Positions 13,111-30,052 of a DNA stretch of 30,052 bases are shown piece after piece. Within the stretch, counting starts at the first letter, position 1; each line of letters begins with the position of its first letter. The translations under genes and the position numbers were made by a program. The notes under the pieces were generated by a model, which saw nothing but the letters and a program-made list of their open reading frames with translations, was not told the DNA's origin and did not search any database. Location of the stretch: IMG/VR virus record IMGVR_UViG_3300031840_000121, positions 1-30,052 of that record. One strand, written 5' to 3'. Origin of the DNA: a virus.

Positions 13111-13797
13111 TCATATTTCCACCTCTACTCGCCATAAAGAAGAAACAAAAAATTCTTTTACACTTGTTGTAATACCAGTGTCTGATGGCGTTATGCTAAT
13201 CATTGCAACATCATTAGATTCTATTGTTGGTGAACTGCTCCAGTCGGACTCATTTACTGTAAGAGTTGTGTTATCTACAGTGTTACCTAAAGCTGAAGAA
13301 TCATACAGGAAGGTGCAAACCTCGTCAACTGTTGCATCTCCATCGTCCATTTTCTTTATCTTAAAAAGAATATCATCTGTGTTGTCTTCAAACACGGGAA
13401 CTTTAAATAGTATTTTTGAACAATGCATTTTAAATGGAGTTAAAAAACCCACATCACATCTTGTAGCTGTATTGTCTGTTGAACTAGACCAAGGTAAAAA
13501 AACTTCAGACGTGCCTAAGTCAACACTAAAGTTGTGTGTAAACACACGATAGTCTATGAATTTGTGTGAATATTTTAAAGTATTTGTAGTTAGTGTCCTA
13601 TCTACATATTGATCGCCATTATTGGACATATACGATTTCCACAACTGTCCAAACTTTTTTCTGTATATTGCTAGCTGACTATTTGATTTTTTTTCAATAG
13701 CAATCTGTCCTTCTACCATACCATTTAAAGATGGCTTACCTTGAAACTCTACAGAGGCTTGTTTTGTGTTTTGGATTCTTCTAGTATCTCTATCCAT
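13111..13797 (-). CDS. Beta-rich virion appendage protein candidate
   Basis: A 228-residue protein joined to the nozzle-like gene by a TAATG overlap. The N-terminus contains GMVEGQIAIEKKSNSQLAIY, a pattern typical of phage fibre or spike attachment regions, followed by a short aromatic helix (FGQLWKSYM). The rest alternates Thr/Ser/Asp-rich strands, fitting a beta sandwich. It is probably a tail appendage or receptor-binding accessory bound to the nozzle. Assignment rests on composition and place. Confidence 0.6.
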   Translation of the reverse strand: MDRDTRRIQNTKQASVEFQGKPSLNGMVEGQIAIEKKSNSQLAIYRKKFGQLWKSYMSNNGDQYVDRTLTTNTLKYSHKFIDYRVFTHNFSVDLGTSEVFLPWSSSTDNTATRCDVGFLTPFKMHCSKILFKVPVFEDNTDDILFKIKKMDDGDATVDEVCTFLYDSSALGNTVDNTTLTVNESDWSSSPTIESNDVAMISITPSDTGITTSVKEFFVSSLWRVEVEI

Positions 13798-16622
13798 TAG
13801 GTAACATTTTTGTTTCTAATGTATCTATATTCAACGCTAATGTCATTAAACTCATACACTCCAGATGTAGTAGCCGCAAACTGTATCTGCAAGCTTTGAC
13901 ATTCTATAGTAGAAGACGGGGTTAATGTTACTACGTCCCATGCACCACTGGTATCTGCTAAGTTACCTGTAAATGTACCACCGCCATCACCAGAAAAATT
14001 TTGCTTACCATCAATAGCATATTTAAAAGGAGTTGTTACAGAGCCATTAGATTTGTAAGTAACAATAACTTTGTATACTTTTTTAATAATACCGGGCTCA
14101 CCAAAATCTATATCTCTTGTAATAAATACTTGATGTGCATTTGCGAGACTAATAGGTAAAAACTTTTTAAAGCTAGTAGTAGTGTGTGATGCATTGTTGT
14201 TAGTAGCTACAATTAAATTATTGTTCCAATCTGTAGAAAAGTTGCTAAATAGATGACTGTCTGTAAAAATAAGATCGTGAAATACCCAACCATCTGAATC
14301 AAAATCATATATCCAACCCTCATCTGAATTGTCAGAAGAATCGTTGGGGCTTCTCATAATAACCAATGAGTTACTAATACTATCGTAACCAATCATAGGG
14401 TCTTTTACGTTTGCTGTACCACGATACCATGCGTTCCATGTTTTATCTGCACCTGTTCCAAGAAAAGAAGCTTTGCTAACCGCTAACTTATCTTTAATAA
14501 GGTTTGTAACTTTTTGACCGTCATATATGTAACATCCATCTTCTGCAACCCAAGCTATACCATATTTTGTTTTTGTTACGCTAAAATTTTTATTTACACC
14601 AGAGTATTTTATTGTTTCTTCTAAGTACCAACCTGCTGGGCTAGGGCTTGCTATATTGATGATATGAACTAGATTATGCTTAAAGGCTACCAACCTATCG
14701 GCATAAGCTTGTAAGGCTGTGTATACCCCATAGTCGCCCTTAGAAACGTCTATAAAATTATGTGGCAGTATCGTGTCAAACTTATTGATTTCACTATACA
14801 TAATCCTGTCACCAAAAGTTTCTAGCTCCCCAGAAGCACCAATAACTCTTACGTTCCCTATAAATGTTCTTCGATTTTCTACAATAGAAGCTTGATACGA
14901 TTCACCTGCACCACCTAATGATACATATTTTACGTCTGGTGAAAACCCATTTATCGTTGTGTATGTATCTAAATTTGGCTTACTTGCATTTCCTGTGGCA
15001 TCTGCAACCACACAAAAACCTTTGTCAACAGCAGTAGCATTTTCTGTCCAAGCTACATGATCTCCATCTATAGTGGTTCGTACACCCTTTACAATATCTA
15101 TGTCTGCAAGTAAAGCTAACTCATTATCTGTATTAGCTTCTCTAATGTATATTCTTCCACCAGATATTCTACCGGGATATGCAACGTCAGCATACACAGA
15201 AACTCTCATAGACTTACCTGCTGTTTGTGAATGAGTAAATGCCGCTATCGTAGCCGCACCGTCCCCCATTCTAACAGGAACAGACTCTTGATTTCCATCA
15301 TATAAAAAACTTTGATAAAATTCGTATGTCAAACCTTCCCAATCACCATCCGCTGTACCATTGCTAACACCAATATTAAAACCTATCCCTCTTCTAAGTA
15401 TGTGTTGCGAATCGTCATTGTGAGTAATTTGACCGATTCCTCCATAATTTCTTTCGTATTGAACATTAGCCGCTAACCCAGCCGCAGGCTTTGTGCAAAA
15501 CAACACTTCTGATGGTCTAGCATCATAGTCTGCTCCAATAGTAATTACTTCACCTGCAAAGTTTTGATCTAAAACGTTTGTGCCAGCACCATTATCAAAA
15601 ACAAATCCAGTGCCAGTGGTAACTTGACCATTTAAAACAAGAGCTGTATGGCTTGCATCTCTTAGTTTCCTTGCAACCCCCCTAGCAAAAGTGTCACTGC
15701 TATCTGTTGGTTGATTAAAATATGCACCTGCTGTATTAGCCGCATGGGTTGTATGACCAAAAGCTATTGTAAGGTTAGCACTATTTGTTTCTGGTGATCT
15801 TAAAACGCTAGAGTGCTCTTGCCACTCTGCAATCGTCAATCCTAAATTATGATTAAATTGATTTCTTTGTATATACCCAAACCATTTTATAATGCTTGTG
15901 TTTGTGGTCTCTGTATCGCATACCCGCAGAACCTCATCTACAAAGTGATATATGTATTTAGCACCATTTATACCTGCTAGCGTTGGGTTTATTTTTCTGT
16001 TAGTCCAACCATTACCTGTTTGCGTGTAATCTGTAGTGGCATTATTAGACCAAACATCTACACCAGCCGCATTTGCACTTGTACCTCTTTTTCCCAATGC
16101 ACACATTTTATCACCGGTAGATCGAATGACTCGTATGGTAGGATTAACAGCGGTATCGTCTTCATTAGTAATGCCAGTTCCTTTTAGTACATAATATACA
16201 TCTCTATCACTAAAGGTTAAGGTTGTTCCACCGGAAACATTTGATAGTGTCGCATCTGATATTTCAAAAGTAGCAGGATCACTTGTTTGAGTTACTGAAG
16301 CGATATAAGCTCCAGCTTTTATGTTTGTTCCGCTTACCGACATGCCAGCAGTTATGTTTGTATTAGCCCCATCCATTATAATTGTCGTTGTTGGGGTAGG
16401 TAATGCAGTAGACCTAGTATTGTCTGTAAATGTACTACCTAAAGCAGAACCACTATTTAAGTTGTCTACAACCTGAGCAACTAAAAAAATACCATTGTTT
16501 TCTTCTGTACCTGTAATCTTTACTAAATCACCAACCTTAATTAGACTACTGGTAAATATAGTACTTATGGTAGAGGTTACACCGCCTACTAGCTTTACAT
16601 ATGAAGTTGAAGGTATTGGCAT
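13797..16622 (-). CDS. Tail nozzle-like protein, main part
   Basis: A 941-residue beta-rich protein. Residues about 20-60 form a small strand domain (VGDLVKITGTEENNGIFLV) and 80-139 another (GMSVSGTNIKAGAYIASV). The body has repeats resembling beta-propeller blades; residues 611-700 include MYSEINKFDTILPHNFIDVS, YADRLVAFKHN and WVAEDGCYIYDG, patterns I associate with podovirus tail nozzle or stabilisation proteins. In the virion this would form the tail tip through which DNA leaves. The start ATG follows directly, in frame, after the TAG of the upstream gene, so both may be parts of one protein. A weak AAGGAA lies 11 bases before the ATG and could allow separate starts. Confidence 0.75.
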   Translation of the reverse strand: MPIPSTSYVKLVGGVTSTISTIFTSSLIKVGDLVKITGTEENNGIFLVAQVVDNLNSGSALGSTFTDNTRSTALPTPTTTIIMDGANTNITAGMSVSGTNIKAGAYIASVTQTSDPATFEISDATLSNVSGGTTLTFSDRDVYYVLKGTGITNEDDTAVNPTIRVIRSTGDKMCALGKRGTSANAAGVDVWSNNATTDYTQTGNGWTNRKINPTLAGINGAKYIYHFVDEVLRVCDTETTNTSIIKWFGYIQRNQFNHNLGLTIAEWQEHSSVLRSPETNSANLTIAFGHTTHAANTAGAYFNQPTDSSDTFARGVARKLRDASHTALVLNGQVTTGTGFVFDNGAGTNVLDQNFAGEVITIGADYDARPSEVLFCTKPAAGLAANVQYERNYGGIGQITHNDDSQHILRRGIGFNIGVSNGTADGDWEGLTYEFYQSFLYDGNQESVPVRMGDGAATIAAFTHSQTAGKSMRVSVYADVAYPGRISGGRIYIREANTDNELALLADIDIVKGVRTTIDGDHVAWTENATAVDKGFCVVADATGNASKPNLDTYTTINGFSPDVKYVSLGGAGESYQASIVENRRTFIGNVRVIGASGELETFGDRIMYSEINKFDTILPHNFIDVSKGDYGVYTALQAYADRLVAFKHNLVHIINIASPSPAGWYLEETIKYSGVNKNFSVTKTKYGIAWVAEDGCYIYDGQKVTNLIKDKLAVSKASFLGTGADKTWNAWYRGTANVKDPMIGYDSISNSLVIMRSPNDSSDNSDEGWIYDFDSDGWVFHDLIFTDSHLFSNFSTDWNNNLIVATNNNASHTTTSFKKFLPISLANAHQVFITRDIDFGEPGIIKKVYKVIVTYKSNGSVTTPFKYAIDGKQNFSGDGGGTFTGNLADTSGAWDVVTLTPSSTIECQSLQIQFAATTSGVYEFNDISVEYRYIRNKNVT

Positions 16623-17027
16623 CTATAGACCACTTCCTTGCTCCGGTGCTTGGGTGTTACCATCTGGGTTTGTAGCCACCTGAACAAAAGCTATGTTACC
16701 GTCACTCGTACCAACAGTTAATGTTGTACCGCTTTTGGTTTCCGTTATAGTTTGATCCGCATCTTTACTGTGATCTGATTCAAAGTAAAACAAACCAAAG
16801 CCACCTAAAACTGTGTTATTTGCAGATGGAATATATTGAGTTAAGTTAGTAGAACCATCGGAGTCTTCGATGTGATTGTATAAACCACCAGCAGTTTTTA
16901 TTTTTCCCAATGCATCAATAGACATATTCTTAATAAATGGATATTGCCTATCTGGTAAGTCTCTAGGGTCTTTACGGTTATTCATACCACCAGACCAGTC
17001 ATTTATTTTGTATATCTGCTTAGGCAT
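16623..17027 (-). CDS. Tail nozzle-like protein, N-terminal part (separated by in-frame TAG)
   Basis: A 134-residue protein that opens with INDWSGGMNNRKDPRDLPDR and then NMSIDALGKIKTAGGL. This 'sGG.N...dP..l.d.q...i.Nm..d..G.i' pattern is the usual beginning of phage tail nozzle or propeller proteins, which normally continue into the body without a break. Here TAG (16625-16623) stops the frame, and the next codon in the same frame is the ATG of the 941-residue body. So this is either a split gene, a read-through gene, or a point mutation or sequencing error. The start overlaps the upstream stop by 1 base (TAATG). Confidence 0.75.
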   Translation of the reverse strand: MPKQIYKINDWSGGMNNRKDPRDLPDRQYPFIKNMSIDALGKIKTAGGLYNHIEDSDGSTNLTQYIPSANNTVLGGFGLFYFESDHSKDADQTITETKSGTTLTVGTSDGNIAFVQVATNPDGNTQAPEQGSGL

Positions 17028-17254: not shown

Positions 17255-17437
17255 TTAATCTTCCTTTATTTTCTTGGTTTTTAAATATAAATAATAAATT
17301 TGCACTGAAAACATTATACACATAAGAACACCAGACAGTAAATCTGTCCAGTATACAACGCCTAAGCTTGTGCTTAGTCCTGTTACTTTTAAACTATCCA
17401 TTAATCCATCCACTTTCCATGCATTTTTAAGTGCCAT
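17255..17437 (-). CDS. Small membrane protein, holin candidate
   Basis: A 60-residue protein with one sure transmembrane segment at about 33-52 (LLSGVLMCIMFSVQIYYLYL), a possible weaker one at 17-31, and a short charged tail KTKKIKED. Size, topology and basic tail fit small phage holins, which open the inner membrane at lysis. It lies in a row of small membrane proteins. Its first 37 bases overlap the end of the 39-residue gene upstream. No enzyme partner is recognised in the window, so the holin call is inference. Confidence 0.55.
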   Translation of the reverse strand: MALKNAWKVDGLMDSLKVTGLSTSLGVVYWTDLLSGVLMCIMFSVQIYYLYLKTKKIKED

Positions 17438-17962: not shown

Positions 17963-18279
17963 TTTTTCTTACGCTTTCCCCAACTTAATGGATTAATATT
18001 AAATTCCTTTTCATAGAAGGCTACTTTTTCTGCCAGCTCTTCTCGCTCAGCCCTTTCTTCCATGATATGTTTACTAAGTAAATCCCCAATTTGTTCATTT
18101 GCAACAACAACGTTATCTTCAAGTTTTGCAATTCTAGTCTCAATTTGCCAATAACCATAAACCAACATCCCGATAAGAACTCCAATCTGAGCCAACCACT
18201 TAAGGTTAATGCTAACAATGGCGTTATCATCAAGCACAGTAGCACGATAACTTCTGGCGGTATCTGGTTTGTCATTCAC
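17959..18279 (-). CDS. Membrane-anchored coiled-coil protein, inner-membrane spanin candidate
   Basis: I place the start at GTG 18279, which overlaps the upstream stop as GTGA and follows GAGGTCAA; a TTG at 18300 would add 7 residues. The 106-residue product has a transmembrane segment at about 27-45 (LAQIGVLIGMLVYGYWQ), then a coiled coil to about 92 (HIMEERAEREELAEKVAFYE) and a basic end GKRKKK. This is the layout of inner-membrane spanins such as Rz, which with an outer-membrane lipoprotein fuse the envelope membranes at lysis. A lipoprotein-like gene lies directly upstream. A second open frame (18021-18275) is nested inside. Confidence 0.6.
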   Translation of the reverse strand: MNDKPDTARSYRATVLDDNAIVSINLKWLAQIGVLIGMLVYGYWQIETRIAKLEDNVVVANEQIGDLLSKHIMEERAEREELAEKVAFYEKEFNINPLSWGKRKKK

Positions 18280-19662: not shown

Positions 19663-22044
19663 TTAAACTCTGTAAGTCATTTCAAAAACTAACCTATCTC
19701 CATTTGCCCAAGTAAAAGGTGACCCTTCTGTAACGCTACCAACGGCCAACGAATCTCCAGAGGTAGTTGCTTTATGAAGATTTAAGGTTGTTGTATTTAC
19801 TGAGCCTTGACAAAATCCAAAATACAAAGCAGCTCCACTATCTAAAAATTCAATTTGACCTTGAGGCTTTATGTCATTTGCTACTGTAAAAGGCAAGTTT
19901 GTTAATGTTGTAGTTCCACTAGCAGAGGTATCAGCCGCCCAAGTAATTTGTCCTTGAACATATACTAAATTGCCAATTTTTGTATATTTACCAGATAATG
20001 TTGCACTTCCTTCCGTAAGATTATCAAATGCTGGTGTAAATGTGCCTTCTTCGTAGTCATCCAGAGTTCTTGCATCTGCACTTGCATTTTGACTATCTGG
20101 AAAGTTTAACTGCCCTTGAGGTAAGTTTACAACTCCAGAACTTAATGTTAATGTTTCTTTCTGAGTACCATTTAACATAGTGTATATTCTTAAATCAGAA
20201 TCCTCATTACCATTTGATACATCGGTCAATCTTCCTATCATTAAAATTGCTTCTGTTGGATTCCCACCATCATCATCAGCATACATATAAATTCTACCAG
20301 TTTCATCATTGTCTGCTGGGTTTGCTCTATCGTTTTTTAAATTTAAAAAGCCACCACTTGAATTGTCTGCTGAATCAATTAAGTTCATATGCCTTGCATG
20401 AACTGTAGCACCACTATCTTGTGCCATATAAACAGCAGTTACATCTGCATTACCAAGTGTTACTGAATTATCTGCTACTCCTGTTGCATTGTAGCCTATT
20501 ACTGTTTGATTAGTACCATTATTAGCCGATGGGTCTGTAATAGCTCCAATTAAAGTATTTTGTGTTCCTGTGGTTACCACATCTCCACTTACATATCCTA
20601 ATGCTGTATTATATGTAGAAGATGAACCATCTTGAGCTGTTAAAGATTGATAACCCACTGCAACATTTCTTGTACCATCAACTTCAGTTGCTAAAGCAGA
20701 TGCTCCAATCGCTACATTATCATCTGAGGTTGTTAAGTTTGCTCCAGCACTTTTTCCAACTAAAACATTTTCATCTGCTGTGGTTAAATCTAAACCAGCA
20801 TCGTCTCCTATGATGACATTATTATTACCACCAGATTGTATGCTGTTACCAGCTAACTCGCCAAAAATTGTATTACCAGAACCAGCATCATTATTACTTA
20901 GTGAGATTCTGGAGTTGTCCTCAAGTTTAAGTCTTATAGCACTACCTGTTACAAGCCTTATATCTTCAGCTCTAATTCCCATTGGTTTTAAAGCACTTCC
21001 AGCGGCATTAATAACTTGCAATGCAAAAACACCAGAACCAATTTCTCCTATAGTATCAGTAAACGAACCTCTTGCATCTGTGCTGATATTTACATCTAAA
21101 GTTCCTACAGGCGTAACTCCAATACCTACCTTGCTTCCCACAATAGACATTGCTGTATTTGTATTATCATTACCTTTAGTTGCCAAGAAATGTAACTCTC
21201 CATCATTAGAAGAATTTGTCTCATCTGTAATCTTAGCAAGTATTCCAGCATATACACTTCCTTCCGCTATCGTAGATGGAGGTTGATTGCTGTCATCTCC
21301 ACCAATAAACATAATACTTCCAAGTGTATCCCCATCAGCACCAGTTGAACTATTAAATAAAGCTAATGTAGGACTCATTTTAGCGGCTGTTGTACCACTT
21401 CCCTCAATGACAACTTGAGGAATAAAAGTTCCATCTGTTGCTTCTAAACCACCTACACTACCTTCTGCTGAACTTTTGACATGAAGAGGGCTATAGGGAC
21501 TTACAGTTCCAATACCAACATTGCCTGAACTGTCTATTCTCATACGCTCAGTAGCGGCCGCTGATGTGTTTGTAGAAAAAACTAAAGCAGTAGAATTATT
21601 GTCAGCCGCAAAAGTAGCCTCAGCTTCACCAGCTATTGAAGCTCCTACCAACTGAGAGTCGCTTCCATCTGCCTCGCTAGCGGCTAAAAACTCTATCCTT
21701 CCAAGTTGGTCATTATCAACTATAGTTGTTTCAGAAGTTGTTAATTGTAAGGTTCCTGCTGGTGTAGCACCTGTTCCAGTAGAACCTAATATTTGAACTA
21801 TCCCTTGTATCTGTTCATCGAATGTATTAGTAGCACTACCCTGTACAGTTAAATCGCCTGTAATAGTTACATCACCTGAGATAGTATTGCTACCACCAAG
21901 GGATACATTAAGTCTGTTATTAGAAGTATCAAGTACAGCGTTTAGTGCTTCTTGAGATGTGTGAGAATTTGCGGCTACGGAGTTGCCTGAAGAATCTAGT
22001 AGTACCTTGTTTAGTACTTCTTTTGTAGTGAATTGGTTTGCCAT
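19663..22044 (-). CDS. Modular tail fibre protein
   Basis: A 793-residue Ser/Thr/Asn/Gly-rich protein. Residues 1-50 contain two related units (KEVLNKVLLDSSGNSV and QEALNAVLDTSNNRLNV), then a VTITGDLTVQG-type strand repeat. About 165-190 holds RMRIDSSGNVGIGTVSP, a fibre motif common in phage receptor-binding proteins. About 408-540 carries trimeric-adhesin-like repeats (NNVIIGDDAGLDLTTADE, NVLVGKSAGANLTTSDD, NVAIGASAL). The last 125 residues form a globular beta domain (GKYTKIGNLVYVQGQI) likely to bind the receptor. No chaperone domain is seen at the end. It would act as a trimer on the virion surface. Confidence 0.85.
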   Translation of the reverse strand: MANQFTTKEVLNKVLLDSSGNSVAANSHTSQEALNAVLDTSNNRLNVSLGGSNTISGDVTITGDLTVQGSATNTFDEQIQGIVQILGSTGTGATPAGTLQLTTSETTIVDNDQLGRIEFLAASEADGSDSQLVGASIAGEAEATFAADNNSTALVFSTNTSAAATERMRIDSSGNVGIGTVSPYSPLHVKSSAEGSVGGLEATDGTFIPQVVIEGSGTTAAKMSPTLALFNSSTGADGDTLGSIMFIGGDDSNQPPSTIAEGSVYAGILAKITDETNSSNDGELHFLATKGNDNTNTAMSIVGSKVGIGVTPVGTLDVNISTDARGSFTDTIGEIGSGVFALQVINAAGSALKPMGIRAEDIRLVTGSAIRLKLEDNSRISLSNNDAGSGNTIFGELAGNSIQSGGNNNVIIGDDAGLDLTTADENVLVGKSAGANLTTSDDNVAIGASALATEVDGTRNVAVGYQSLTAQDGSSSTYNTALGYVSGDVVTTGTQNTLIGAITDPSANNGTNQTVIGYNATGVADNSVTLGNADVTAVYMAQDSGATVHARHMNLIDSADNSSGGFLNLKNDRANPADNDETGRIYMYADDDGGNPTEAILMIGRLTDVSNGNEDSDLRIYTMLNGTQKETLTLSSGVVNLPQGQLNFPDSQNASADARTLDDYEEGTFTPAFDNLTEGSATLSGKYTKIGNLVYVQGQITWAADTSASGTTTLTNLPFTVANDIKPQGQIEFLDSGAALYFGFCQGSVNTTTLNLHKATTSGDSLAVGSVTEGSPFTWANGDRLVFEMTYRV

Positions 22045-25247: not shown

Positions 25248-26630
25248 TTAATCGTTTTCTAAGTTAAACAAAGCATGAGACTCAGAAAGACTTACTTCTA
25301 AACCAGCTTCGGTTAGAATCATGTCTTTTCTTAAATCCTCATCAGCACCTTGAACGTTGGTCATAACCTGTGTGTCACGGTTAATTCCATTTCCAATCAA
25401 AGGACGATAAGAAACCTGACTCATGTCAGCCATTAGCATGTATCCAGCCGCAATTCCTCTGAAAAGTGGCTCTTTAACAAGGTTAAGTGTTCCGTGAATA
25501 GTATCAATTACCATTACGGAGTGACCGAAAGCACCATTCCTAGTTGTCATGTCTATTCTGTAATTATTAGCAGAATGACCCATAGAAGCATCTAAGAATT
25601 TTCCATCGCCTAACTTGTTAAAAAACGTAATCACTGGTAAGGAACACAAGACTAGCTTGTCAGAAGCACCACCACGAGCAGGATCAAAGATTACTTCAAG
25701 ATCGCTAAGCAATCTATCGTAAGTCATTTCTGCCTGTGCAACGCTTCGGTAGTATGAACTACCTGAAGTATAGCTAAAGTCATCCGTATTTACAACTGGA
25801 TTTACATTTTTAAGGATGTGACCTACAATTCCTTCAGAATATTGAATGCCACCTTGACGAGCTTTTTGACCAAAGAGCATAGCTCTTTCAATGTCAATTT
25901 TATGCTCACGTAGTTTATCAGCCCATAACCTGCTCCACTCGTCTGCGTACCCACGATAGCGAGTTGCATACGCTGTGTTTGTCATCTCAGCGGCTGTCTT
26001 AAAAATCTGGGTATACCCATAATTATCTTCAAGCTCTGTTGAGAAAACGTCAGGAGAACCAGAACCTTCCTCAAAGGAAGTACCGATTATCTGAGCTTCA
26101 TCATTATCAGCAAGAACATTGTACCCAGAAACGTTTGCGTTTGAGACATCAATAATCTTACCTGTAAATGAAGTTTCGCTACTACCATGTGTTACTGCTG
26201 AATCAACACGAACGACCACTTGCCCAATTCCAACATCCCCTGTGCGAGATGCAGTTTGAACAGCGATAACCATTCCTTTTAATAGATAGTCAACAGAGGC
26301 TCCACCAGCAGTGTCAACAGTAAACGCATAAGACGTTCCTGCGGACACAGCAGAACCACCATTAACAGCTCCTTTCAAAAGAAGAGAACGGTCAGTAAAG
26401 TTGATTTTATTACGATTTTCCAAGTAACGAAATACTGGATCATCGGTAGGTGCCTTGGCTACTTGAGAAAGATACACGAAGAATGGAGATTCTTCAGGGG
26501 CCAATTCTGCTACCCTGTCTCCAAAATTAAATATCCGTCTCCTATCAGGAGCCTGACCTACACCAGCAGAGGAAGTAGAAGCTGTGATATCACTGGACTT
26601 TAAAGTGCCAGTATTGTATGATATTGCCAT
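25248..26630 (-). CDS. Major capsid protein (HK97 fold, DUF5309-type)
   Basis: A 460-residue protein of typical capsid size. It opens with RIFNFGDRVAELAPEESPFF, a signature I associate with DUF5309-type major capsid proteins. Further segments match such proteins: EWSRLWADKLREHKIDIERA as the spine-helix region, a DRLLSDLEVIFDPARGGASD stretch, and VKEPLFRGIAAGYMLMADMS near the end. It builds the icosahedral shell. It follows the scaffold gene with AGAGG before the start and is followed by the decoration candidate. Confidence 0.9.
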   Translation of the reverse strand: MAISYNTGTLKSSDITASTSSAGVGQAPDRRRIFNFGDRVAELAPEESPFFVYLSQVAKAPTDDPVFRYLENRNKINFTDRSLLLKGAVNGGSAVSAGTSYAFTVDTAGGASVDYLLKGMVIAVQTASRTGDVGIGQVVVRVDSAVTHGSSETSFTGKIIDVSNANVSGYNVLADNDEAQIIGTSFEEGSGSPDVFSTELEDNYGYTQIFKTAAEMTNTAYATRYRGYADEWSRLWADKLREHKIDIERAMLFGQKARQGGIQYSEGIVGHILKNVNPVVNTDDFSYTSGSSYYRSVAQAEMTYDRLLSDLEVIFDPARGGASDKLVLCSLPVITFFNKLGDGKFLDASMGHSANNYRIDMTTRNGAFGHSVMVIDTIHGTLNLVKEPLFRGIAAGYMLMADMSQVSYRPLIGNGINRDTQVMTNVQGADEDLRKDMILTEAGLEVSLSESHALFNLEND

Positions 26631-27470: not shown

Positions 27471-29501
27471 CTAGGCTTCAGGAGTAGAACTGACTTTTCT
27501 CTGAACATCTTTCAGATTACTAGCCAATTTCTCCACCTCTAGCTTCACCTCGTTTTCTAGTTTACTACGTTGCACTCTTCTGTCTGCTTTAGATTCTGAA
27601 GAAACTTCAGATAGCCTAGATTTAAACTTTTCAACCTCGACTCTTTTTCTATCGCTAACAGACTCTCGTTGTGCGGTTTGCAAGTCACCCTGCAAATTCT
27701 TTATCTGATCCTGCATTGCCTGAACCTGTTGCTGTAATAACTGCTTCTCTTCTGTTCTACGCATAATGCCTTCCTTATCAAACAACTCAGGATTCTTCTT
27801 TAATACTTCATACCTGTCTACAATCCCCATTTGGAAAGCCTCTAAGTACACTGCAAGTTCTGCATATTTACTAGAAGGCATTGTAGAACCCGGTTCAATT
27901 CTTATGTCATGCTGATCTAACGCATGTTTTTCTTTCTTTAAATCTAACACAGCTCCGGAAACATCTGTATAAAAATTTGCCATAACTTCAGTTATATTGT
28001 TATTTGGCTGTGCTAAACGAAAAATCTTTTTATAAGTGTAGTGACCTTTAGACAGGTTGTACAAAACCTTGCCCAATTTATTAATGCTAAACTCTATATC
28101 TCTAAGTTTAGACTTTGGCCTCTCACTTCCCAGTGCAATCATTCTTTCCGTGGCCCTCATTGTCTCTGGAGCTTTTTCTGCAAAGCCATGCATCATTTCT
28201 GGAAGTCCAAATATAAAATCTATGTAAAACTCTGACTGTTGTATTAACCTATAGAACTCTCCAGCTAAAGGTTGAGGAGCTGGGTAGTGCGGCTCACCTT
28301 GGGATGAATCGACTTCAATAACGGCATTTGGATTTGCCCAGTCTTTTTCTAGCTGATCTATATCGTCCACACTACCCAAAGGTACTAACAGTTTTAAACC
28401 CGCTGATGCTTGTGCATGAGACAATGCCAATGACCACAACTTATTGAGCAGTCTTTGCATAGGTCTTGCTCTAGATACATCTGATTTGGGATAAGGAGTG
28501 CCTGTCCAGATATTTGGAAGGGGCACTATGGGATATTCATCGGTATTAAGTATCTGTTCATATAGCACAACCTCACCCATCGATGCACATACCTTTACAC
28601 GAGTTTGTAAAACTTCTATTGCTGTAAAAGCTCCAATGTCAAACGCCTCTAAATTTTCCGATACAAACTTAGCATATTCTTCTTGAGAAAGAATACTTTC
28701 CTCCTGACTCTTCATATCTATGATACGATAATAAGGAACTTTTATTTTATAAAATCTTTCTAGTACTTGATATTTTTTTACTTGATAATAATCTTTGTCT
28801 TTTACCTCCGCTGGAGTAAACACATTCATAGAGTTTTTGTTTTGAGAAGAAGGGTAATCTTCTTCATCATACGTAAATCCAGATATATCGTTTATTAAAC
28901 CCGGTATCTCTTCTCCTGTTTCCGGATCAACCCTATCTCCTAATTCTGGGTAGAGGTTAACGGCTTGCTCACCTGTAAGGATGGTGGAAAGGATGATACC
29001 ATCTGAATCGCTAAACCAACGGTCACGAGAACTAGGAGAAGCATAAACTCTGAACGGGTCAACATAAGTGAACTTAACGTCACCTCTACCAAAATCTGAT
29101 TCTCTGTCAATATAGGCATACAAATAGCCCATGCCTGTAGTAGCATAGTCTTGTATCGCTTGTTTCATCTGCCAATCACCATCAGACTTTTGCCATACAT
29201 AACCCATCACCGTTCTCCACAATGTAGCAACTTGTACATCGGAATCTTCTCTAGGGGTTATTGTAAATGCAGGAGGTCTTGATGTAAGCACTGCTTTAAA
29301 TTTTTCTATTGCGGCAGATACACGATCCATAGGTATATCTGCTTGGTTTCTAGATGCTAGGTCGTCAGATTCATCCTGACTAAAATGATTACCAAGATAG
29401 AAATCAATGTCCTTACGAGCTTCCGTGTCCCATTCAGATCGTGAGTCACGCCATTGCCTATATAAATCATCATTTTGTAATGCTCTTGGGTCTTGTTCCA
29501 T
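27471..29501 (-). CDS. Portal protein
   Basis: A 676-residue protein with the layout of P22-like podovirus portals. The N-terminal wing has DPRALQNDDLYRQWRDSRSE and a DIDFYLGNHFS segment; then SAAIEKFKAVLTSRPPAFTI, ATTGMGYLYAYIDRESDF and VKFTYVDPFRVYASPSSRD. Near 350 is RARPMQRLLNKLWSLALSHA. The last 120 residues are a long charged coiled coil (QMQDQIKNLQ type), which may be the barrel. Portals form the 12-fold ring at one capsid vertex and the channel for DNA packaging and exit. Its ATG lies in frame 3 bases after the TAG of the upstream gene. Confidence 0.9.
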   Translation of the reverse strand: MEQDPRALQNDDLYRQWRDSRSEWDTEARKDIDFYLGNHFSQDESDDLASRNQADIPMDRVSAAIEKFKAVLTSRPPAFTITPREDSDVQVATLWRTVMGYVWQKSDGDWQMKQAIQDYATTGMGYLYAYIDRESDFGRGDVKFTYVDPFRVYASPSSRDRWFSDSDGIILSTILTGEQAVNLYPELGDRVDPETGEEIPGLINDISGFTYDEEDYPSSQNKNSMNVFTPAEVKDKDYYQVKKYQVLERFYKIKVPYYRIIDMKSQEESILSQEEYAKFVSENLEAFDIGAFTAIEVLQTRVKVCASMGEVVLYEQILNTDEYPIVPLPNIWTGTPYPKSDVSRARPMQRLLNKLWSLALSHAQASAGLKLLVPLGSVDDIDQLEKDWANPNAVIEVDSSQGEPHYPAPQPLAGEFYRLIQQSEFYIDFIFGLPEMMHGFAEKAPETMRATERMIALGSERPKSKLRDIEFSINKLGKVLYNLSKGHYTYKKIFRLAQPNNNITEVMANFYTDVSGAVLDLKKEKHALDQHDIRIEPGSTMPSSKYAELAVYLEAFQMGIVDRYEVLKKNPELFDKEGIMRRTEEKQLLQQQVQAMQDQIKNLQGDLQTAQRESVSDRKRVEVEKFKSRLSEVSSESKADRRVQRSKLENEVKLEVEKLASNLKDVQRKVSSTPEA

Positions 29502-29504
29502 ACG

Positions 29505-30052
29505 CTAAAAGGGCATGCCTCTCATCATTATCATTCTCTGTAGCATTTGTCTTGTCATCTCTTTACCCGCATCTTTTTCTCTGTCTAAAACAGGATTTCC
29601 AGTTTCAGAGTCTAAAGATTCTGCACCTTCCAATAAACCTTTTAGTTTTAGTAGCTGTAATGTTTTCCTAGCTTTGTTTACCGTATCTTGCTCAATGCTA
29701 TCTTGCAACATCATAGCCTGATCTCTCACTCCCAACTGACTTCCTTCATACATAGAAGGATCTGCTTGCCTAGCATCAATCTGCAATGGGTCTTTAGGTT
29801 GAGGTGGTAATGGAATACCCTCTTCTACGGGGCCACCTTCTTGAAAGGGTAGCAAGTCACGAAGACTGCGTTTTTTTGGTGCTAAGTACTCGTCTATCAT
29901 AGCCATTGGAATTGAGTCTTGCTCTGCTGAAACCATTTTTTGAACAGCGTCCATATATGCTTTATTTCTAGACATTTGCAACCTGTCAGACATTCCTTCT
30001 CCCGCATAATACCTCAATCCCTCTCCACCTCCAACTTGTTCGGCAGGTATAG
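29505..30052 (-). CDS. Partial protein upstream of portal, open at the window edge
   Basis: The frame stays open to the right edge, so the 5' end is probably outside the window; a TTG at 30017 and an ATG at about 29993 are possible internal starts only. The visible product has YYAGEGMSDRLQMSRNKAYM, a Pro-rich linker (EEGIPLPPQPKDP), and a helical C-terminus ending MIMMRGMPF. No family is recognised. It directly precedes the portal gene in the operon and may be a packaging or internal virion protein. It ends at TAG. Confidence 0.65.
   Translation of the reverse strand, partial: IPAEQVGGGEGLRYYAGEGMSDRLQMSRNKAYMDAVQKMVSAEQDSIPMAMIDEYLAPKKRSLRDLLPFQEGGPVEEGIPLPPQPKDPLQIDARQADPSMYEGSQLGVRDQAMMLQDSIEQDTVNKARKTLQLLKLKGLLEGAESLDSETGNPVLDREKDAGKEMTRQMLQRMIMMRGMPF

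Follow-up and report, generated by a model that had tools for sequence, protein, structure and literature searches.

The closest described counterparts of the locus considered here are the tail nozzles of podophages. In T7 (gp12; PDB 6r21, 7boy; PMC6702177) and in the short-tailed Kuravirus SU10 (gp17; PDB 7z47, 7z4b; PMC9509320) the nozzle is a hexamer that combines a platform with a seven-bladed propeller, and in SU10 gp17 the chain runs from the N-terminal platform part into blade 1 (PMC9509320). Each of these nozzle proteins is one chain, as is chain U of the cyanophage A4 portal-tail complex (PDB 9k09_U), with 1005 residues. Also relevant are translationally coupled gene pairs, which overlap or are separated by a very short gap and whose products are likely subunits of one complex. 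Such subunits are enriched for short gene overlaps, and in the gene pairs tested re-initiation drops steeply with distance, being nearly lost at ~20 nt (PMC10666635).

The window, the whole stretch of DNA that was analysed, is a virus record of 30,052 bases that may be a fragment. Its minus strand encodes a P22-type portal (27471-29501) and, in a further likeness to SU10, an SU10-type major capsid protein (25248-26630). A 793-aa protein encoded at 19663-22044 (minus strand) matches tail spike or fibre and virion structural families (phrog_23837, phrog_4636, phrog_9942) and is likely a receptor-binding fibre. The original prediction described a nozzle gene interrupted by an amber codon, with a 134-residue N-terminus and a 941-residue body that lie in the same frame with only TAG between them. 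The ORFs bear this layout out, and the features on which the argument turns are the following.

16623..17027, minus strand: gene A, N-terminal nozzle chain of 134 aa, predicted to supply platform and first-blade strands, ending in TAG (ORF; N-terminus alignment to one-chain nozzles; 36-sequence family).
16623..16625, minus strand: TAG stop codon of gene A, immediately 5' of the gene B ATG (sequence; TAA or TAG in relatives).
16633..16644, minus strand: Shine-Dalgarno-like stretch GGAGCAAGGAAG within the end of gene A (predicted duplex; no synonymous change in codons 128-132).
13797..16622, minus strand: gene B, nozzle body chain of 941 aa (beta-propeller and platform) with its own ATG at 16622-16620 (ORF; start conserved in all split relatives; fold matches to phage nozzles).
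16179..16766, minus strand, approximate limits: insert of ~200 residues across the end of A and the start of B, with the gene border inside it (alignment A4; low pLDDT at residues 118-138).

The stop codon of A and the ATG of B abut, with a gap of 0 and in one frame, so that the border reads ...GCAAGGAAGTGGTCTA TAG ATGCCAATACCT... A gap of 0 is found at 4 of the 25 same-strand junctions of the window (16622/16623, 17254/17255, 18275/18276 and 19126/19127), where TAG, TAA or TGA precedes the ATG, and a 1-nt overlap at 5 more. The junctions at 17255 and 19127, to which the original prediction had drawn attention, are real, and a third, at 18275/18276, reads TGA ATG. Because a gap-0 border is in frame by definition, the shared frame of A and B is no evidence for read-through, and their arrangement is not in itself unusual in this operon. 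What is beyond chance, as judged from sequence comparison, is that A and B together match one nozzle protein elsewhere. A changed genetic code, which the original prediction already held to be unlikely, was rejected: TAG also terminates the genes at 29505-30017, 27471-29501 and 18021-18275, and it swaps with TAA among relatives.

Searches of Pfam and PHROGs with A and B returned no informative family, and profile searches of PDB sequences gave nothing useful, with no sequence similarity to PDB chains, T7 gp12 included, being detected. The nozzle assignment therefore draws on two lines of evidence, the comparison of folds and the homology to one-chain proteins, and both uphold it. An AlphaFold2 model of joined A+B, in which TAG was read as Q and which was based on alignment A4, has a mean pLDDT of 77, with residues 1-40 at 86-88; the joining forces A and B together in this model. 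When it was compared with the PDB by Foldseek, the first 32 matches were phage tail chains, mostly podophage nozzles, with E values of 2e-18 to 9e-7 and low TM-scores of 0.2-0.5. They include the cyanophage A4 chain, the best match and one of similar length (2.2e-18), SU10 gp17 (1.9e-17), Pa223, the crAss001 muzzle, VP1, T7 gp12 (1e-10 to 6e-9) and P22. Platform and beta-propeller, the nozzle fold seen in SU10 gp17, are recovered for the A+B model in these matches. Homology gives the same answer, in that A aligns at the N-terminus, and B in the body, of single ORFs of ~780 aa (L074-L078). Together these comparisons support the assignment of A+B as a podophage tail nozzle, N-terminus plus body, in which A would correspond, by analogy with the solved structures, to the initial strands of the platform together with some of blade 1. 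The departure from the solved nozzles is in the encoding: SU10 gp17, T7 gp12 and the 1005-residue A4 chain are single chains, whereas the window has two ORFs, of 134 and 941 residues, and all relatives with A likewise have two.

A could instead be a separate protein with another role, for example an adaptor or assembly factor, that is merely descended from a nozzle N-terminus, B alone forming the nozzle. A is encoded separately, its tail is long and variable, and its binding to B is presumed, but A retains the conserved N-terminal motifs of the one-chain nozzles, and the alignment reveals no other N-terminal platform part in B. Moreover, an earlier model with a poorly aligned N-terminus found the same nozzle families with weaker scores, and better modelling of the A region improved the best PDB nozzle match from 4e-14 to 2e-18, although the two models differ elsewhere too. 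A separate role for A is thus considered unlikely.

The state of the border in relatives bears on how the two ORFs are to be read. Searches of viral contigs yielded 78 loci with B as query and 80 with A, and a third search with an alignment of A as query yielded 80 loci, many on the same contigs. When junctions were told apart by 75 nt of sequence, the loci that contain an A gene gave 71 distinct ones; they include close relatives of one another and are not 71 independent events. The stop codon of A is TAA at 59 of them and TAG at 12, B starts with ATG at 69, and the spacing from stop to start runs from -1 to +20 nt (22 junctions at -1, 10 at 0, 12 at +2 and 11 at +3). With respect to A, B lies in frame 0 in 30, in +2 in 39 and in +1 in 2, which places 41 out of frame. 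Seven loci of one subgroup (L052-L056, L058 and L073) stand outside this count since the start motif failed there; there, too, an ATG overlaps the stop or lies close to it. The split is present in every relative that has A, and no fused A-B ORF occurs at the 71 distinct junctions.

Close relatives of the window exchange TAG and TAA at the same site between near-identical flanks; the TAG ATG border is identical in six separate contigs (L001, L003, L005, L006, L016 and L036), and TAA ATG stands in others. In the A family of 36 sequences the first ~115 residues are conserved and the last ~20 vary freely, as expected for a true C-terminus, and the start of B is conserved in all subgroups. The conserved border, the free C-terminus of A and the conserved B start together imply that B is a gene with its own start, and the splits in all relatives with A, with that same conserved start, imply that a fused product is not a trait of the family. 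On one contig (L014 and L082, IMGVR_UViG_3300030389_000392) the B homologue is frameshifted at about residue 164; neighbours at 93-94% identity are intact, and the frameshift is possibly a sequencing or assembly error.

In light of these relatives, the interrupted single gene of the original prediction, for which a comparison with homologues for fused forms had been proposed, gives way, as does its idea that read-through of the amber codon yields two forms of the protein. The same split in most relatives had been named there as an outcome that would refute it, and the relatives do show that split, with either TAA or TAG. Programmed or suppressor-mediated read-through of TAG, which would yield small amounts of a fused A-B nozzle in addition to the separate chains, draws on the single in-frame TAG in the window and on the ability of the joined sequence to be modelled as a nozzle, but it is confronted by a majority of junctions that are out of frame, by spacings that run from -1 to +20 nt and cover all three relative frames, with none fused, by the interchange of TAG and TAA between near-identical relatives, and by a B gene with a start and ribosome site of its own. 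Further, the RNA at the junction is no more structured than shuffled sequences (z=0.47), and no tRNA gene was found in the window, possibly a fragment. Read-through is accordingly judged very improbable. Still more so is the idea that the TAG is an error of sequencing or assembly, or a nonsense mutation that arose recently within one gene: TAG is one base from sense codons, but TAG ATG is repeated in separate contigs, TAA ATG is found in others, and the whole group has the split, which leaves this account scarcely any probability. A two-chain protein or simple split gene was also among the options offered originally, and it is the one that the evidence supports. A ends at its own stop, B starts at its own conserved codon, and the border is kept in every relative frame and with either stop. 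It was concluded that the podophage tail nozzle is very probably encoded as two chains, by a pair of ordinary genes that abut.

The sequence around the border is consistent with translation of B from its own start. The stretch GGAGCAAGGAAG upstream of B is predicted to pair with the anti-Shine-Dalgarno sequence at -9.3 kcal/mol, one of the strongest such duplexes of the window, and 10 nt separate it from the B ATG. Codons 128-132 of A, which bear it, show no synonymous change in 19 close relatives, and mean synonymous change over codons 127-132 is 0.05 versus 0.24 overall, a value as low being found in 2.5% of 6-codon windows; this reduction weakly suggests constraint on a Shine-Dalgarno element. 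In other split relatives the match ranges from strong to none, several having none, which fits coupling through closeness. That closeness is seen both in the window, with its gap of 0, and in relatives, where 58 of the 71 junctions have a spacing of -1 to +4 nt or less. In their overlaps or very short gaps, A and B resemble the coupled pairs described above, and the proposal that their products form one complex is a second likeness, with coupling at this locus taken from the arrangement of the genes.

The one-chain proteins indicate where the border between the two chains falls. A search with a one-chain ORF found 80 loci, and those readable from the start are single genes. These nozzles form an uncultured sister group (L074-L078, L149-L227), ~30% identical to A and B over the N-terminus and body and set among similar gene types, and they differ from the window in being a single ~780-aa ORF without the insert and without the split. 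In the joint alignment (A4) the one-chain forms lack approximately residues 88-283 of A+B, so the split sits inside an insert. Among split forms the length of the insert differs, being ~80 residues shorter in L030 and L100. The gene border, at residue 135 of the joined model, falls within residues 118-138, whose pLDDT is below 50, and is modelled as a disordered linker.

Several additional observations concern these proteins. B starts with an N-terminal domain (16622-16400 in the window) that in several relatives gives weak matches, with a GD.IKI.GT..NNG motif, to phrog_1236 'head protein', a short profile (E 1e-4 to 7e-4); the inserted domain may be a module that phages share. The split nozzles L033, L035, L038, L039, L043 and L097 form a subgroup with an additional insert, longer than 100 residues, in the middle of B (alignment A4 columns ~570-735). 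One contig of 80,282 bases (IMGVR_UViG_3300030708_000851) carries two diverged one-chain nozzle genes, L160 and L196, 81% and 55% identical to L075; either the assembly merged two phage genomes, or this phage has two nozzles.

In a tree of the body, all 42 one-chain representatives form one group apart from all 54 split ones, and the branch between them measures 1.14 substitutions per site (support 1.000). Because this tree is unrooted, we infer fission rather than fusion from the nozzle chains matched in the PDB, which are single, making the split state the derived one. A fused form that retains the insert was not found among relatives of A. The likely history is that a one-chain nozzle gained an insert of ~200 residues and then underwent a single split within it, and the best reading is that this fission is old and stable and lies inside the inserted domain.

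The two-chain nozzle would be made as follows. From one mRNA, A would be translated, and the ribosome would stop at TAG and restart at the adjacent ATG of B, aided in the window by the Shine-Dalgarno match in the end of A. Such coupling would keep the amounts of A and B near equal. To judge by homology and the model, the strands of the N-terminal platform and of the first blade would come from chain A, and the rest of the propeller and platform from chain B. No covalent bond would join the two in the assembled nozzle, which would probably consist of six A+B pairs. As the border lies in a flexible stretch of the inserted domain, the body could fold with the link cut.

The isolate phage collection contained no match for A, B, another B, a one-chain relative or the portal, and bacterial and archaeal genomes contained no match. 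No description of a split nozzle was found in the literature searched, which covers part of published work. What looked like a broken gene is thereby recast as a conserved two-chain form of the nozzle through which podophages eject their DNA, in a group without an isolate match. Automatic annotation will label A as an unknown small protein and so miss the N-terminus of the nozzle. The chances are somewhat better than even that, throughout a large uncultured podovirus group, the nozzle is a hetero-oligomer with A plus B at each position, fixed by one ancient fission in the inserted domain, and that, unlike in the solved one-chain nozzles, the cut could free the platform or the first blade to move during DNA ejection. 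The two groups, one with a single chain and no insert, the other with two chains and the insert, are a natural pair in which to study how a structural gene can be divided and still work.
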